IMG/VR virus record: IMGVR_UViG_3300009093_000020
Coordinates: 1-46,971 of that record
Direction: 5' to 3' (one strand)
From: a virus
Length of the DNA: 46,971 bases
Position numbers and translations under genes: made by a program. Positions 6,664 through 46,971 of this stretch are shown in pieces; position 1 is the first letter of the stretch, and each line of letters begins with the position of its first letter. The notes below the pieces were generated by a model. It saw only the letters and a list, made by a program, of their open reading frames with translations, did no database searches and had not been told where the DNA came from.

Positions 6664-6681
6664 TAGACCATGACCGCCTGA

Positions 6682-6751
6682 GCGTCGGTAGCCCAAAGTA
6701 GAGGCGCCGTTGACAAAACGGATGTTGCTGGTTCAAGCCCAGCCCGACGCT
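6682..6751 (+). tRNA. Aberrant tRNA or tRNA-like element
   Basis: Seventy bases with a perfect 7-bp acceptor stem (GCGTCGG with CCGACGC), a perfect T-arm (GCTGG, TTCAAGC, CCAGC) and a 5-base variable loop. The D-arm has only a 3-bp stem (GCC/GGC) and lacks the usual GG in its loop. The anticodon arm is two bases short: CCGTT/AACGG encloses only GACAA, or CCGT/ACGG encloses TGACAAA with G where U33 should be. No CCA is encoded. A valine GAC anticodon is one reading but is not secure. It may be a degenerate tRNA or a structural element before the primase gene. Confidence 0.55.
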
Positions 6752-6758
6752 TTTCCCA

Positions 6759-9265: not shown

Positions 9266-9456
9266 AACAGCGTGACCTGAACGACATTGTAAATACCAAA
9301 CCAGAAATCAAGGTCACGATTCCAGAGCATCAGCGGTTCCTAGCCTTCCGCCATGACCGTGATGCCGTGGCCTTCGATGACTGGTGGTTTGAAACTGGTG
9401 GGCCATCATTCCGCAATTTCATCAACGAACGGGAGAACAATGCAACTAACGACTGA
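9262..9456 (+). CDS. Hypothetical protein (64 aa)
   Basis: A 64-aa protein whose start overlaps the MazG-like stop (ATGA), good evidence that it is translated. It has an aromatic segment F-D-D-W-W-F-E-T-G-G and a polar C-terminus. No family recognised. Its last 17 bases overlap the start of the next gene. Confidence 0.65.
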   Translation: MKQRDLNDIVNTKPEIKVTIPEHQRFLAFRHDRDAVAFDDWWFETGGPSFRNFINERENNATND

Positions 9457-10567
9457 CAAGAAAGCACGCAAGGAACAACCCATGGCACGGGGTCTTATTG
9501 ACTACTTCCCCAATGCCCTGGCCGAAGTCGCCCACGTCAGCTTCGTGGGCAATCAGCAGCATAACCCCGGACAGGAACTTCACTGGTCGCGGGGCAAGTC
9601 AGACGATCATGCCGATTGCGTGATCCGCCACATCATCGAGCGTGGCTCGATCGACGACGACGGCATTCGGCATTCTGCAAAGGCCGCGTGGCGTGCGCTG
9701 GCGATGCTTCAAATCGAGCTTGAGCAGGCCGAGCCTGCGAAGCAGGGGCCTGTTGCCGTGAATTGTGGGCCAACGTTCTGCGATAGCCGCGTGCATGCGA
9801 TCTACAACGGGCTGAAGGCCAATAACTGCCCGGCCGACGTGGCTGAACTGATTACCAAAGGTACATCAGTCTGTGAAGGCCCAGCCGATGCCGCCCGGCC
9901 GATCGTATACGTGGCTGGCCCGATGCGGGGGTATGAACACTTCAACTTCCCGGCCTTCGACAAAGCCCGCGATGCAATGCTCGACAAGTCCTTCCATGTG
10001 ATCTCCCCGGCCGACATTGACCGCGCCTGCTCTGGTAACGATGCGGATGATCCCACGAAGATCGACGTAACCGATCAGACGCGATTCGTCTTCCGCGACT
10101 TCTATGCGATCTACTTCCTGGCAAAGTTCAATCACACGGGCAGCAACGGTATCGTTCTGCTCGACAACTGGTTCAAGAGCGTCGGTGCCACGGCTGAATT
10201 CAATCTGGCCAAGTGGCTGGGTCTGAAGTTCTATGCATCAGATGGTAACTATTACTTCGACGGCGATGGTACCTGTCCGAAGGCGTATGTACCGCCGCCG
10301 ACTTCCTTCGGTGCGATTGAGAACGGGACCACGCCGAAGAAGCCAGCCGGAGAATCTTACGAGGGAAACTGGGACTATCTGGGTGCCATTCGCGGGGTCA
10401 ACTACTACATCCGCGTTCGTGATGGACAGGTTGATAAGGTCGGTTACGGTGGGGACTACCTCGAACCGAACACCATGCCCCTGCCTGATTTTGCCCTGCG
10501 AGTTCAGAACGGCAAACTGACTCGCGTGAGTTCGGATGAAATGCAGGAATACTCGTCGAGGGCTTAA
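9440..10567 (+). CDS. dATP/dGTP diphosphohydrolase-like / DUF4406 fusion
   Basis: A 375-aa two-domain protein. Residues about 16-100 (A-R-G-L-I-D-Y-F-P-N-A-L then H-W-S-R-G and H-I-I-E-R-G) match the phage dGTP diphosphohydrolase N-terminal family. Residues about 153-265 (I-V-Y-V-A-G-P-M-R-G, later P-A-D-I-D) match DUF4406, a nucleoside deoxyribosyltransferase-like fold. The last 100 residues are not recognised. The ATG at 9440 has GGGAG before it; the frame is open further upstream but that part is antisense-like. The pair suggests editing of the dNTP pool. The domain calls rest on motif memory. Confidence 0.75.
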   Translation: MQLTTDKKARKEQPMARGLIDYFPNALAEVAHVSFVGNQQHNPGQELHWSRGKSDDHADCVIRHIIERGSIDDDGIRHSAKAAWRALAMLQIELEQAEPAKQGPVAVNCGPTFCDSRVHAIYNGLKANNCPADVAELITKGTSVCEGPADAARPIVYVAGPMRGYEHFNFPAFDKARDAMLDKSFHVISPADIDRACSGNDADDPTKIDVTDQTRFVFRDFYAIYFLAKFNHTGSNGIVLLDNWFKSVGATAEFNLAKWLGLKFYASDGNYYFDGDGTCPKAYVPPPTSFGAIENGTTPKKPAGESYEGNWDYLGAIRGVNYYIRVRDGQVDKVGYGGDYLEPNTMPLPDFALRVQNGKLTRVSSDEMQEYSSRA

Positions 10568-38311: not shown

Positions 38312-38334
38312 GGGACAGAATTGGAGCGGAGAAA

Positions 38335-38643
38335 ATGCTAGGTCTTTTGAAGCGTATCGTCATGGGCCGGCCCGTTGTGGCTGTCAAGTCAGAACCGGGT
38401 ATGACAAACCGGCAAGCTGAGGCGATTTTGCGAGGATTGCTTTACGATCCTCGTTACAAGTTCCGGTCCCTGGGCCGGCTTGCAAGCGCTATTCATCAGG
38501 ACGTTGCCACAACGCGGAGTTTGCTGACGGGCATCGGGGCGCGTCCTTCATGCCGACAACGGGCTGACGGAAAAGAAATGTGGTGTTTCGACAATCACCG
38601 GGCAACCGTCAGCAGTTGGTACGATGAGGCCAGCGACGATTAA
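38335..38643 (+). CDS. Hypothetical DNA-binding-like protein (102 aa)
   Basis: A 102-aa basic protein. Residues 25-80 (R-Q-A-E-A-I-L-R-G-L-L-Y-D, L-G-R-L-A-S-A-I, V-A-T-T-R-S-L-L-T-G-I-G-A-R) resemble a winged-helix arrangement, followed by a hairpin ending in W-C-F-D-N. The ATG at 38335 follows the TGGAGCGGAGA leader; a GTG at 38281 is in frame but overlaps the membrane peptide. A terminator follows. Confidence 0.65.
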   Translation: MLGLLKRIVMGRPVVAVKSEPGMTNRQAEAILRGLLYDPRYKFRSLGRLASAIHQDVATTRSLLTGIGARPSCRQRADGKEMWCFDNHRATVSSWYDEASDD

Positions 38644-38661: not shown

Positions 38662-38699
38662 ACAGTTGCCCCGGTGAATAGCTGGGGCGACTGTTTTTC
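38662..38699 (+). terminator. Rho-independent terminator
   Basis: ACAGTTGCCCC (38662-38672) pairs with GGGGCGACTGT (38684-38694), an 11-bp stem with one G-T pair, followed by five T's. It ends the HTH-gene transcript, so the amidoligase gene beyond it needs read-through or its own promoter. Confidence 0.8.
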
Positions 38700-38743
38700 T
38701 TAGCGTCTTATTCCAATTCGGCATTTAACCTGGAGCGGAGACA

Positions 38744-40066
38744 ATGCCCGATCAATCTCTCTTTCCCGATTTGCGGCCGGCAGATTTGCCCATATCGCAA
38801 CACGATAACGTTAGTGTTTGCGACAACTGTAGGGGTATCTGCCGGACAGAAGACAGTAACGAAAATCCCGATGGGTTGCGTTACTGTCCCGAATGCGCGT
38901 GGTGTGAAAGGTGCCATAGCTTCTTTACACGTGAAGACGGCATCCACCACAACGGTACAACCTATTGCCCCGATTGCGTGTATACGTGCGATCAGTGTGG
39001 GGATACCTCGTTAGATGAATTTCCGACGGCGTATGATAGCAATCGTCGCCGTAATGAAGTATGCGCGTGCGAGGAATGTACCTGGACTTGCGAGGATTGC
39101 GACTCGCGATATACAAACGAGGTAGACAGTATCAGGACAGAAGACAGCCGTACGATTTGTCAACATTGCTATGAGAATGACTACTTCACTTGCGAGGGCT
39201 GTAGTTGGGTCCTGCCGATGACCGAATACGCTGACGACGGCTATTGCAACGGTTGCCATACGTCCGATGACGGCGAAAATGATGAGATTCGGGTCATTCA
39301 TGAGCACGGTTACAAGCCTACGCCCCGATTCTTGCCGCAAGTGGGCCGCGCTTGTTACTTCGGCCTGGAAATTGAAGTAGATGGGCCTTACCGGCCCCGT
39401 TCGGAACTGGTAAGCGCCGCCGAATTACTCCCAGACGATTCATGGTATGCGAAAGACGATGGAAGCTTGGAATATGGCTTTGAATGTGTTTCGCACCCTG
39501 GAACATGGGACCACTGGCGGGACGATCCTTTCAATTGGTGTGGCCAATTGGTTGAACGCGGATTGCGATCGTACGATACACAAACGTGCGGATTGCACAT
39601 CCACGTAACGCGATCTTTCCTGAGCGAATCACAGATTCTAAAGCTACTCATGTTTTTCCGTGCGAATGTGGATACGGTTACGCGCCTTTCACGCCGCAAG
39701 GGAGAACAATGGAAAGGATACGCTCGCATTGATGAGCGGGACACGCGCCAGCTTGTCAAGAAAGTGAAAGACGGCCCCGATACGCGATATGAGGCGATTA
39801 ACCTGGAAAACGAAAACACGGTTGAGTTTCGCATCTTTCGCGGAACATTGAACGTGCAATCCATCAAGCGTAACTTGGCGCTAGTGGTCTCCCTTTGCAT
39901 GTATGTGAAAGAGTCTAAGCGTACTCAGCTATCTTTCACAGAGTTTTGCACGTGGTTGTACCGTCGCGGTGCGGCAATCCTGGGGAATAACGCAATTGCA
40001 CATGACGTTTACCTATGGGTAGTTAACGCTGCTGGTGGCCACTTGCCAGACGATGACGGCGAATAG
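38744..40066 (+). CDS. Amidoligase (glutamine synthetase-like fold) with zinc-ribbon array
   Basis: A 440-aa protein. Residues 25-175 are an array of about ten C-x-x-C pairs (zinc ribbons). Residues 203-400 match the putative amidoligase family: Y-F-G-L-E209-I-E211-V-D, D-D-G-S-L-E-Y-G, C-G-L-H-I-H-V-T-R at 282-290 and T-V-E-F-R-I-F-R-G at 359-367. The family joins an amine to a carboxylate using ATP. The start follows the TGGAGCGGAGA leader. The next gene is a class II glutamine amidotransferase, which could supply ammonia or hydrolyse an amide. Substrate unknown; peptides, peptidoglycan or a protein side chain are the choices. Confidence 0.85.
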   Translation: MPDQSLFPDLRPADLPISQHDNVSVCDNCRGICRTEDSNENPDGLRYCPECAWCERCHSFFTREDGIHHNGTTYCPDCVYTCDQCGDTSLDEFPTAYDSNRRRNEVCACEECTWTCEDCDSRYTNEVDSIRTEDSRTICQHCYENDYFTCEGCSWVLPMTEYADDGYCNGCHTSDDGENDEIRVIHEHGYKPTPRFLPQVGRACYFGLEIEVDGPYRPRSELVSAAELLPDDSWYAKDDGSLEYGFECVSHPGTWDHWRDDPFNWCGQLVERGLRSYDTQTCGLHIHVTRSFLSESQILKLLMFFRANVDTVTRLSRRKGEQWKGYARIDERDTRQLVKKVKDGPDTRYEAINLENENTVEFRIFRGTLNVQSIKRNLALVVSLCMYVKESKRTQLSFTEFCTWLYRRGAAILGNNAIAHDVYLWVVNAAGGHLPDDDGE

Positions 40067-40076
40067 TATTCCCGCT

Positions 40077-40102
40077 TTGCTCCATGGGAGACCATGGGGC
40101 AA
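40077..40102 (+). other. Strong hairpin between amidoligase and amidotransferase genes
   Basis: TTGCTCCATGG and CCATGGGGCAA form an 11-bp stem (one G-T pair) with the loop GAGA. No T-run follows, so it is more likely an RNA stability or partial termination element than a full terminator. Confidence 0.65.
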
Positions 40103-40140
40103 TGCCGCAATACTAACGCGGAGATAATGGAGCGGAGATT

Positions 40141-41094
40141 ATGTGCTGGATGATATATGCCCCGATCGGTCGGGCGATACCGGAAGATTGGATACGTACC
40201 GCCTGGAACAAAAACCATGACGGGGCCGGTTACATGTTCGCGGTGGATGGGACGTTGCATGTCCGCAAAGCCTATTGGAAACTGTCCGATTTGCTAGCGG
40301 CGTATCAGGCCGATTTACTAGCCTACGGCGATCAGTCGGCGTTCATACTTCACTTGCGATGGAGTACCCATGGGAAAGAGGACGATCGCAATACCCATCC
40401 GCACGTGCTGGACAATGGCCGTGCCGCGCTTTGCCACAATGGTGTACTCAGCAACTTTGAACCGCCCTGGAAGAGTGACATATCCGATACGGTTTTCTTC
40501 TGTAGCACGGTACTTGCCGCACGTTCGGCAGAGCAATTACTTGATGAGACATTCGGCAAGTTGCTGGGCGAAATGATCGGTAAAGAGAACAAGTTTGCCC
40601 TGATGGATTGCGCCGGCAACGTGGCGATCGTCAATCAGGAAATGGGCACATGGGATGGAGACTTCTGGGTATCCAATCTGTCCCACGATACGACCGTGTT
40701 TAAGCCTAAGCCTATCGTGCAAACGACGGCGATTGTGCAAACGACGCCCGTTGCACGTGGCATCGTGTTTGACGGTAAGGATAAGCTACCGGCCAAGTAT
40801 CAGCCCGACTTGTGGGAAAGGGAAGTGGATGAAGCCTGGGAGCGCTTTCACGCGACGGATAATCCGTATGAAGACGCGTACGATGAAGCCATGGTTGAAC
40901 TAGCGTACTACACGGAGACCGGCCCACTGGAACGCTTGACGGCGAAAGACTTGTATGCCATGTCTGATGCGGCGTGGCGTGCGGCCGATGCAATTGACGA
41001 CGATACTGATTATCAGGATGCGTTGGACGATGAAAATGACGACGCTGCCGCGTGGCTTCGCGAACGTGAACGCCAGCTAGGCGAAGTCCCATAA
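40141..41094 (+). CDS. Class II glutamine amidotransferase (Ntn hydrolase)
   Basis: A 317-aa protein whose second residue is the catalytic cysteine (M-C-W-M). Further family marks are N-H-D-G-A-G-Y, H-L-R-W-S-T-H-G about residue 77 and A-L-C-H-N-G-V-L-S-N-F near residue 98, so the glutaminase pocket is complete. Residues 200-317 are an extra acidic helical tail without a synthase partner domain. The TGGAGCGGAGA leader precedes the ATG. The adjacent amidoligase is the likely partner: one enzyme would release ammonia from glutamine and the other use it, or the pair would form and trim an amide tag. Confidence 0.85.
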   Translation: MCWMIYAPIGRAIPEDWIRTAWNKNHDGAGYMFAVDGTLHVRKAYWKLSDLLAAYQADLLAYGDQSAFILHLRWSTHGKEDDRNTHPHVLDNGRAALCHNGVLSNFEPPWKSDISDTVFFCSTVLAARSAEQLLDETFGKLLGEMIGKENKFALMDCAGNVAIVNQEMGTWDGDFWVSNLSHDTTVFKPKPIVQTTAIVQTTPVARGIVFDGKDKLPAKYQPDLWEREVDEAWERFHATDNPYEDAYDEAMVELAYYTETGPLERLTAKDLYAMSDAAWRAADAIDDDTDYQDALDDENDDAAAWLRERERQLGEVP

Positions 41095-41107: not shown

Positions 41108-41146
41108 GCCCGGTAGGACTGCCACTACCGGGCATCTTTATTTAAC
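41108..41146 (+). terminator. Rho-independent terminator
   Basis: GCCCGGTAG (41108-41116) pairs with CTACCGGGC (41125-41133), a perfect 9-bp stem followed by ATCTTTATTT. It separates the amidoligase pair from the recombinase gene. Confidence 0.8.
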
Positions 41147-41187: not shown

Positions 41188-42084
41188 ATGCTAGCTGTAC
41201 CGTATGTAACATCTAAGCCAGTCACGCTGTTTTTGAACCATTGTGAGCATGAACGCGGATTAGCGGCGCTGACGATGCGGCGATACCGCCTTACGCTTCA
41301 CGCAATTGAGCAATGGTTGCAATCGCAAGGGACCACATTGCTCGATGCGAACGAGAAGCACATCAGCGACTACTCACAGATGAGGACTAAGACCGGCAAT
41401 GGATCAGGTGCGGTGTCGAATGAAATCCTGTTGATTCGCGATTGCATGCGCTTTTGGACGGAGACCGGACTGGCCGACAAACGTAGCGTTTGCGCCCGTC
41501 TGGATACGCCCAAATTAGACCAGCGATTGCCCCGCATACTGAATAAGGATCAGGTTGCCCGACTCATGGGCGCGGTGCCGGCAAACGCGATGCACCGATT
41601 GCGAGACACGGCGATACTTGAAACGCTATACGCGTGCGGTCTTCGCGCGGCGGAGCTAGGCGGATTGCTCTTGTCTCATGTGGACCTGGGCGGTAGCGTG
41701 CGTGTCACGGGCAAGGGTACACGTGATCGACTGATACCCCTAGGTGGACCGGCAGCTAAAGCTATTGCCGCGTACCTGACGGAACGACCGAAGTACGACC
41801 GCAGGCAAAGCCCCTACGTCTTCTTGACGCGATCAGGTTTACCGCTATCCGACACGGCGATCTGGTCCCTTGTCGTGAAGTATGCGGCCCTGGCCGGTTT
41901 GGAAGATGTTCACCCACATACTTTGCGGCATTGTTTTGCTACCCATCTGTTGGCCGGCGGCGCCGATCTTCGCGTTGTTCAAGAGCTATTAGGCCACGAT
42001 GATCTAGTCACGACGCAACGCTACACCCATCTAGACACGACACACCTGCGACACATCCACGCGACATTTCATCCACGTGGTTGA
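41188..42084 (+). CDS. Xer-like tyrosine recombinase
   Basis: A 298-aa site-specific recombinase. The catalytic set is complete: R153 (C-G-L-R-A-A-E-L), K176 (T-G-K-G-T), H244 and R247 (H-T-L-R-H), H270 (L-L-G-H-D-D) and Y279 (Q-R-Y-T-H). The N-terminus is a SAM-like DNA-binding domain of the XerC/D type. It could integrate the phage at a host dif or tRNA site, or resolve dimers of a circular replicon. GGAGGGG precedes the ATG. No attachment site is proven; the control region and the tRNA-like elements are candidates. Confidence 0.9.
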   Translation: MLAVPYVTSKPVTLFLNHCEHERGLAALTMRRYRLTLHAIEQWLQSQGTTLLDANEKHISDYSQMRTKTGNGSGAVSNEILLIRDCMRFWTETGLADKRSVCARLDTPKLDQRLPRILNKDQVARLMGAVPANAMHRLRDTAILETLYACGLRAAELGGLLLSHVDLGGSVRVTGKGTRDRLIPLGGPAAKAIAAYLTERPKYDRRQSPYVFLTRSGLPLSDTAIWSLVVKYAALAGLEDVHPHTLRHCFATHLLAGGADLRVVQELLGHDDLVTTQRYTHLDTTHLRHIHATFHPRG

Positions 42085-42583: not shown

Positions 42584-42685
42584 ATGTTCGGTGCCATTGC
42601 TGGCGTTGGCGTGATTGCCCTGGCCTACATCGTGGGCCTTGTGATGGGCTTGGCGATTGGTGCCTTTCTGGCGAAAGCCGGATGA
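42584..42685 (+). CDS. Tiny Gly-rich membrane protein (33 aa)
   Basis: Thirty-three residues, nearly all a single glycine-rich transmembrane helix (I-A-G-V-G-V-I-A-L-A-Y-I-V-G-L-V-M-G-L-A-I-G-like). CGGAGA lies upstream of the ATG at 42584. Glycine zippers of this sort oligomerise in membranes, so a pore, holin-like or toxin role is possible. Confidence 0.6.
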   Translation: MFGAIAGVGVIALAYIVGLVMGLAIGAFLAKAG

Positions 42686-42704
42686 CCTGAGCGGAGACCG
42701 GAGA

Positions 42705-42974
42705 ATGAATGCCGTGAAACCTAACGAAATTGATGATCGCGATGGACTGGTCCACGACCCCGACTTCGATCTGGGCGCGTTGATGGGGGATGAAGAAGAC
42801 CCCGACTACGACCCCGACCTGGACGCGGGCGATGAGGACTTGGAAGACGAAGACGAGGACGAGGCCGACTTCGACGACGAAGATGACTTCGAGTTCGGCG
42901 ACGAGGACTACGACGATGAAGACTTCGACGACGACTTCGAGGACGAAGAAGACGACGAAGACTTCGGAGACTGA
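42705..42974 (+). CDS. Extremely acidic low-complexity protein (89 aa)
   Basis: An 89-aa protein; from about residue 28 on, roughly 70% of residues are Asp or Glu, mixed with Phe and Gly. Two GGAG-type sites (GAGCGGAGA and CGGAG) precede the ATG. Such proteins can mimic DNA to block host nucleases or nucleoid proteins, or their many carboxylates could be substrates for the amidoligase 3 kb upstream; neither is shown. A second gene overlaps its 3' third in the +1 frame. Confidence 0.75.
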   Translation: MNAVKPNEIDDRDGLVHDPDFDLGALMGDEEDPDYDPDLDAGDEDLEDEDEDEADFDDEDDFEFGDEDYDDEDFDDDFEDEEDDEDFGD

Positions 42975-45754: not shown

Positions 45755-46971
45755 ACATCGAACTGACGGCAGAAGATGAAGTGGCATTGCGTGAGGCGTT
45801 TCCGCCAAAGGAAACGGAGACGCTGGGGACGCAGCTTAACCGCAAGCTGATAAAGATGCCGCCCCCGCCCCCGATGCGGCAGAAGCCCTTGGCGCCGAAG
45901 ACAAGCATCGTCACAGGTACATGGGGCGAGCATCGGCCTAATGCGCCAACGCTCCCCATGGCGGGCGATGTACCGGCCTGGGTGCCACTCTTGAAAGAGT
46001 TCGGCTATCCGCCGGACGTGCTCGTTCTCGACTTCGAGTGTTACTTCGATGATGAATACTCAATGGGTCGTAAGGCCAATGCCCTGTCCACCTATGAATA
46101 CGTCACTGATCCCCGCTTTGAAGTCCTGTGCCTGGGCCGGCTGACAATGCACTCGCATTCGCCGTTTGCCAGCTATGGCGTGAATGATCGCACTTGCTGT
46201 CCCATGACTGAAGCACAGGTGGCCGGCGATCTGAAGTGGATGCAGCATGAGTATGGCCAGAACTTGGAACGTGCAACCGTCGTGATGCAAAACGCGAAGT
46301 TCGATGCTACGGTCCTGGCCGTTCGTTATGGCATCTTCCCGCCCTTCATCATTGATACCCTGGGGCTGGCGCGACATTGCCACACCCGGCAAAAGAACGG
46401 GCTGGAACAACTGGCCGAGCAGTATGGTCTGGAAGAGAAGGGCGAGACAGAAGAGTTTCGCGGCGTGACATTTCGCAATCGCGTGAAGCGGGTCAAGAGC
46501 CGCAAGAAGGGGCCGAAGCTACCGCTGCCGGTTCCGAAAATCACGGATGAGCAGCAGCGCAAGCTATCCGCTTACTGCTGCAATGACGTGATGCGGGAAT
46601 GGGAATTGTTCACGATCCTGCTGCCGAAGCTGAGCAACCCGAAGGTCGAGCTTCGCCTGATGCAGCACACAATCGAACTTTATACCAAGCCCTCACTGCG
46701 GCTGGATTTCGACAAGGGTGCCGAACTGATAGGCATTTTCGAGGGGGAAGTGTCCAAAGTCCTGGCCGGCGTGGATTGCACGCATGAGCAGATCAGTGGA
46801 GACCACAGCTTCGGCGGGTTGTTGAGCGAAGCCGTTAAGGACGCGGGGGATAACCCCACGGCCTACTACAAGTTCGGCAAACGCGGGGCGATCCTGGCGA
46901 TCGCTAAGACCGATCCTGAGCGGGAGAAACTGCTCAACCATGAATCGCCCCGCGTTCGTGCGCTGATGGAA
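45751..46971 (+). CDS. polA: DNA polymerase I (family A), N-terminal part
   Basis: The first 407 codons of the polymerase, running off the right edge; 366 of them lie before the terminal repeat. A complete 3'-5' exonuclease domain is seen: Exo I L-D94-F-E96-C-Y, Exo II about N181-A-K-F-D185, and Exo III Y275-C-C-N-D279. The first 85 residues are an extra Pro-rich region. The ATG at 45751 overlaps the methyltransferase stop (ATGA). The polymerase motifs are on the other side of the circle junction, at 340-1030. Confidence 0.95.
   Translation, partial: MNIELTAEDEVALREAFPPKETETLGTQLNRKLIKMPPPPPMRQKPLAPKTSIVTGTWGEHRPNAPTLPMAGDVPAWVPLLKEFGYPPDVLVLDFECYFDDEYSMGRKANALSTYEYVTDPRFEVLCLGRLTMHSHSPFASYGVNDRTCCPMTEAQVAGDLKWMQHEYGQNLERATVVMQNAKFDATVLAVRYGIFPPFIIDTLGLARHCHTRQKNGLEQLAEQYGLEEKGETEEFRGVTFRNRVKRVKSRKKGPKLPLPVPKITDEQQRKLSAYCCNDVMREWELFTILLPKLSNPKVELRLMQHTIELYTKPSLRLDFDKGAELIGIFEGEVSKVLAGVDCTHEQISGDHSFGGLLSEAVKDAGDNPTAYYKFGKRGAILAIAKTDPEREKLLNHESPRVRALME
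46849..46971. repeat. Right copy of 123-bp terminal direct repeat
   Basis: Identical to bases 1-123; removing one copy closes the molecule and restores one uninterrupted polymerase gene. Confidence 0.95.

Follow-up and report, generated by a model that had tools for sequence, protein, structure and literature searches.

Gene pair and genomic context

The window (the whole 46,971-nucleotide stretch of viral DNA that was analysed, IMG/VR record IMGVR_UViG_3300009093_000020) contains two adjacent genes on the plus strand, one encoding a 440-residue amidoligase of family PF12224 (38744..40066, assigned by its open reading frame, Pfam and PHROG matches, conserved residues and predicted fold) and the other a stand-alone class II glutamine amidotransferase (GAT-II) of 317 residues (40141..41094, assigned by its open reading frame, profile and fold), with 74 nt from the stop codon of the first to the start codon of the second. 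Both reading frames had been recognised at these positions in an earlier note on this DNA, made from its letters alone, which also pointed to a leader shared by the two genes. The leader TGGAGCGGAGA is present as an exact match on the plus strand before the amidoligase gene (38731..38741) and the GAT-II gene (40128..40138), and also before the gene starting at 38335 (copy at 38322); the window has exactly these three copies, all on the plus strand (0.04 expected by chance), each 2 nt before an ATG. The number of copies and their fixed spacing thus suggest that TGGAGCGGAGA is probably a strong ribosome-binding site shared by the genes at 38335, 38744 and 40141.

The proposal that the pair forms its own unit between terminators is plausible: terminator-like hairpins, both consensus matches only, flank it on the plus strand, one of 14 pairs with a T tract upstream (38662..38694) and one of 9 pairs downstream (41108..41133), but the region has no excess of such hairpin-plus-T sites (9, versus 9.7 in shuffled sequences) and no sigma-70-like promoter was found directly upstream of the pair. 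A tyrosine recombinase gene (41188-42084) follows the pair.

An exact 123-bp direct repeat at the termini of the record (1-123 and 46849-46971) lies within a gene for a family-A DNA polymerase whose reading frame continues over the record ends; because of this repeat and the continuity of the gene, the record probably represents a complete genome, circular or circularly permuted, with the pair upstream of the replication genes. Elsewhere, the genome encodes an FkbM-type methyltransferase (PF05050, 45152-45754, plus strand) just before the DNA polymerase gene, a tRNA-Cys (anticodon ACA, 6681-6752) that is the sole tRNA found, and a protein (9353-10567, plus strand) in which a dATP/dGTP diphosphohydrolase N-terminal domain is joined to DUF4406 (nucleoside deoxyribosyltransferase-like). 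A glycosyltransferase-like gene (PF13712, 35788-36561, minus strand) has a counterpart near the pair in a related locus, L106. A small open reading frame (42657-42974, plus strand) encodes 105 residues, 51% of them Asp or Glu; the earlier note had offered this acidic protein as a possible substrate of the pair, a candidate that was abandoned when none of 174 related loci proved to have a comparable frame (small, with at least 40% D/E, within 3.5 kb).

The amidoligase

The amidoligase scores above the curated cut-off of PF12224 (30.1 bits, cut-off 22) and matches phrog_16683 (4e-40). Its glutamine-synthetase-like (GS-like) ligase domain (approximately residues 200-430) includes the three motifs on which the first assignment had been based, GLEIEVD (207-213), CGLHIHV (282-288) and FRIFRG (362-367), together with the complete Amidoligase_2 motif set (GxExE, DGS, GxHxH and NxxxxxTxExR). 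All three belong to the set of positions that are invariant in 52 of 52 aligned relatives (G207, E209, E211, K237, D239, S241, G245, E247, G283, H285, H287, R318, N353, T359, E361 and R363).

The N-terminal region (approximately residues 26-171, 38819..39256, plus strand) is rich in CxxC and resembles zinc-ribbon or LIM domains, with weak matches to LIM-type zinc proteins. Where the note had estimated about ten C-x-x-C pairs, 11 overlapping CxxC were counted (starting at residues 26, 48, 51, 54, 75, 82, 109, 116, 139, 150 and 168). At least two CxxC lie upstream of the catalytic domain in 160 of 174 distinct amidoligase reading frames, and C150, C153 and C168 are kept in all 52 aligned relatives; the putative zinc-ribbon N-terminus is therefore a family trait of these amidoligases, not peculiar to the window.

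AlphaFold2 was run for each of the two proteins on window-led alignments of 52 sequences. The amidoligase model (mean pLDDT 84.9) matched YbdK (3e-4), the depupylase Dop (5e-4) and GS (6.5e-4) best in a Foldseek search of the PDB, with plant glutamate-cysteine ligase also among the best (3e-3). The fold class of the model is clear, namely that of a GS-like carboxylate-amine ligase, and the matched structures are remote relatives only, since the TM-scores are modest (about 0.3-0.45).

The class II glutamine amidotransferase

The GAT-II translation begins with Met-Cys, so that the N-terminal cysteine is intact as had been noted, and the glutaminase domain (approximately residues 1-185) carries C2, H71, R73, T76, H86, N100, G101 and D116, of which the signature C2, R73, N100, G101 and D116 is retained in 51-52 of 52 relatives. 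The window protein falls just below the cut-off of Pfam GATase_6 (23.8 bits, cut-off 27), and GATase_4 and GATase_6 match 32 and 22 of the 52 relatives, respectively (E<=0.001). A profile of the family matches the glutaminase domains of GlmS (8e-16) and PurF (9e-10), gives a weaker match to the uncharacterised GAT-II 1te5 (1e-4), and matches no EgtC entry at E values up to 10. The predicted structure is of high confidence over residues 1-180 (pLDDT 93-99 per ten-residue block) and of low confidence in the tail beyond approximately residue 185; its first Foldseek match in the PDB is GlmS (E 4e-6), and EgtC is also among the fold matches. Despite the sub-cut-off Pfam score, the predicted identity as GAT-II is unambiguous by fold and profile. 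No synthase domain or other further domain was found in the 317 residues, in agreement with the first description. Structure prediction, which the earlier note had named as a check on its reading, thus gave a GS-like fold for the amidoligase and a GlmS-type Ntn fold for the GAT-II.

Conservation of the pair

Related loci were collected as the best-scoring 80 of each IMG/VR search, a selection by similarity in which some loci come from closely related phages; the searches used three-sequence alignments, the full alignments being too diverse, and scanning viral contigs for single-protein patterns yielded no matches. A GAT-II gene lies directly downstream on the same strand in 78 of the 80 best amidoligase-anchored loci, and an amidoligase gene directly upstream in 79 of the 80 best GAT-anchored loci (77 within 450 nt). 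Co-conservation, another check that had been proposed, is thus evident. The fractions, drawn from similarity-selected and partly related loci, apply to this clade of pairs and do not extend to PF12224 proteins as a whole. The same arrangement of amidoligase then GAT-II on one strand was found at 10 of 14 loci in bacterial genomes. Among 170 pairs for which the stop-to-start distance was measured, 94 have overlapping genes (most often by 1 or 10 nt) and a further 39 a spacing of 0-30 nt; the 74 nt of the window is unusual. Across 75 loci, the pairwise distances of one protein correlate with those of the other (r = 0.79; best of 1000 permutations 0.14), a correlation that partly reflects shared phage ancestry.

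No adjacent GAT-II was found at amidoligase loci L043, L094 and L101, nor beside the amidoligase of Clostridioides phage AR1086-1, where the next gene is unrelated; some members of the family may use another amine. The closest relatives found, loci L105 and L106, show about 34-46% identity across the pair of proteins; L106 additionally shares polymerase, resolvase and glycosyltransferase genes with the window genome. One phage contig has two tandem amidoligase and GAT-II pairs (L061, 2393-6690), and a gut contig (L006, 4161-6550) has a zinc-ribbon amidoligase and a GAT-II followed by a DUF3846 protein (PF12957, 2e-33).

A gene fusion at locus L071 was considered as proof of a complex and set aside: the fused GAT has lost the 13 N-terminal positions, among them the catalytic cysteine, and the fusion appears to stem from a deletion or from misassembly. 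A search for a conserved third gene beside the pair yielded none common to all lineages. WhiB-like and replication genes beside pairs track particular phage lineages, and a RimK-like ATP-grasp gene follows GAT-II in one group only (38 loci of the GAT-anchored search).

Comparison with known systems

The earlier note implied that the pair was new, but it is already in the literature, having been described in the Methylophilales (OM43) phages MEP401 and MEP402 and more than 30 related viral genomes in a paper that also refers to phiEco32 and mycobacteriophage Marvin (PMC10580990). As in the window, the PF12224 ligase of MEP401/402 is directly upstream of GAT-II on the same strand and ahead of replication genes; the proteins are about 21-31% identical to those of the window, and the MEP401/402 genes overlap, whereas the window genes are 74 nt apart and GAT-II has a separate leader. 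Marvin (gp105/gp106) and about 18 relatives likewise carry an amidoligase with CxxC motifs next to a GAT-II, in the order seen in the window and with neither ATP-grasp nor cyclotransferase annotated alongside, but belong to another phage lineage (about 27-32% identity), and the Marvin GAT tail has extra cysteines.

A larger peptidoglycan-modification cassette is reported for phiEco32, LUZ24 and Pseudoalteromonas phages (Iyer 2009 and Hardies 2013, as cited in PMC5498523; PMC3890496; PMC11945000), and is known from UFV-P2, tf, Pseudoalteromonas and Pseudomonas phages. This cassette resembles the window in having amidoligase and GAT-II in the early region, but adds a second ligase (PF14395), an ATP-grasp and a gamma-glutamyl cyclotransferase. 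The apparently complete window genome has no match to the RimK-like ATP-grasp (phrog_2599), and the window record has none to gamma-glutamyl cyclotransferase (PF06094), which is present in 3 of 42 related records. COOH-NH2_lig (PF14395) was matched neither in the window genome nor in the control genomes. Thus, with neither the ATP-grasp nor the cyclotransferase family found in an apparently complete genome, the window apparently has a minimal two-gene form.

Among cellular enzymes, GlmS-, PurF- and AsnB-type GATs share with the window GAT-II the glutaminase domain fold and catalytic residues, but carry a fused synthase domain, whose role a separate GS-like ligase would play in the window. The peptidoglycan-amidating pair MurT-GatD is encoded by adjacent, co-transcribed genes (PMC3267633). 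It is alike in outline, a ligase with a stand-alone glutaminase from adjacent genes. GatD, however, is a class I GAT and MurT is of Mur-ligase type, and so the two are not homologous to the window pair.

Proposed function

Because of the fixed gene order, frequent overlap and correlated divergence, we lean modestly towards the two genes encoding a single glutamine-dependent amidating enzyme. GS uses ammonia as the nucleophile on an ATP-activated carboxylate, and GATs commonly supply ammonia to a partner synthase, the GAT-II domains related to GlmS and PurF freeing it from glutamine. The GAT-II subunit would hydrolyse glutamine to glutamate and ammonia by means of Cys2, and the amidoligase would activate a target carboxylate as an acyl phosphate at the expense of ATP and convert it with the GAT-derived ammonia to an amide on the target. 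The CxxC-rich, putatively zinc-binding N-terminus would most likely position a macromolecular or carrier-bound substrate, or dock the partner subunit. We infer ammonia transfer, complex formation and zinc binding alike. Counting against an amidating enzyme, the nearest folds of the amidoligase include YbdK, Dop and glutamate-cysteine ligase, which do not use free ammonia.

The earlier note had instead read the genes as an amide-forming and amide-cutting couple, in which the amidoligase would join an amino acid or peptide to the target and GAT-II, as an Ntn amidohydrolase, would remove gamma-glutamyl groups or edit the product. The enzyme identities and functional coupling on which it drew are supported, and the conserved GAT-II residues also suit a gamma-glutamyl amidohydrolase; the fold search also returned EgtC-type Ntn hydrolases, relatives in other phages adjoin RimK-like ATP-grasp ligases, and glutamine amidotransferase has been classed with cyclotransferase among degradation enzymes (PMC5498523). 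A cutting role is nevertheless weaker than ammonia supply, and the couple as a whole is possible but doubtful: genes that so often overlap in a fixed order are more likely to encode subunits of a single enzyme than enzymes of opposing steps, the window genome has no ATP-grasp or cyclotransferase family that could be found, and the closeness of the GAT-II profile to GlmS and PurF rather than EgtC lends modest support to a glutaminase feeding the ligase.

For an amidating enzyme, a macromolecular or carrier-bound target is plausible given the conserved cysteine-rich domain. Published suggestions comprise cell-wall modification and superinfection exclusion, secondary metabolites (PMC10580990) and, for Planctomycetes phage ZRK32, nitrogen metabolism (PMC10945688). 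A cytoplasmic peptidoglycan precursor is the guess that the literature favours, and a host or phage protein would be the main alternative. In a specific form of the latter, which we consider unlikely, the two-subunit glutamine-dependent enzyme would act early in infection, guided by its zinc ribbon to amidate carboxylates of one particular protein of the host or the phage; if true, this would be phage-encoded protein amidation of a kind undescribed in the literature examined.

Production of a free amidated metabolite, or a boost to host nitrogen use as suggested for phage ZRK32, is quite improbable as the role of the pair: the same annotations appear there as auxiliary metabolic genes of a phage that promoted growth on nitrate or ammonium, but the available part of that report does not link the growth effect to these genes by knockout (PMC10945688), and a conserved putative zinc-binding N-terminus (C150, C153 and C168 in 52 of 52) is unusual for a small-molecule ligase. 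A defence or superinfection-exclusion module other than cell-wall amidation, acting for example by host-protein modification, is very improbable, for although superinfection exclusion has been suggested for the phiEco32 amidoligase (as quoted in PMC10580990 and PMC11318856) and binding of protein or nucleic acid would fit a cysteine-rich N-terminus, no PADLOC-DB defence model matched.

Significance

The window pair is a divergent, minimal example of an already known phage module. Pairs of this kind are found in phages of mycobacteria and marine methylotrophs, in gut-associated phages, in clostridial genomes and in numerous environmental viral contigs, and the literature searched yielded no biochemical test of their reaction or substrate. 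With the fixed order and overlap of the genes, the loose label "amidoligase, host metabolism" gives way to a claim that can be tested, that the two proteins would form one glutamine-dependent amidating complex. With neither ATP-grasp nor cyclotransferase found in it, the apparently complete window genome offers a candidate in which the two-gene form could be studied in isolation.
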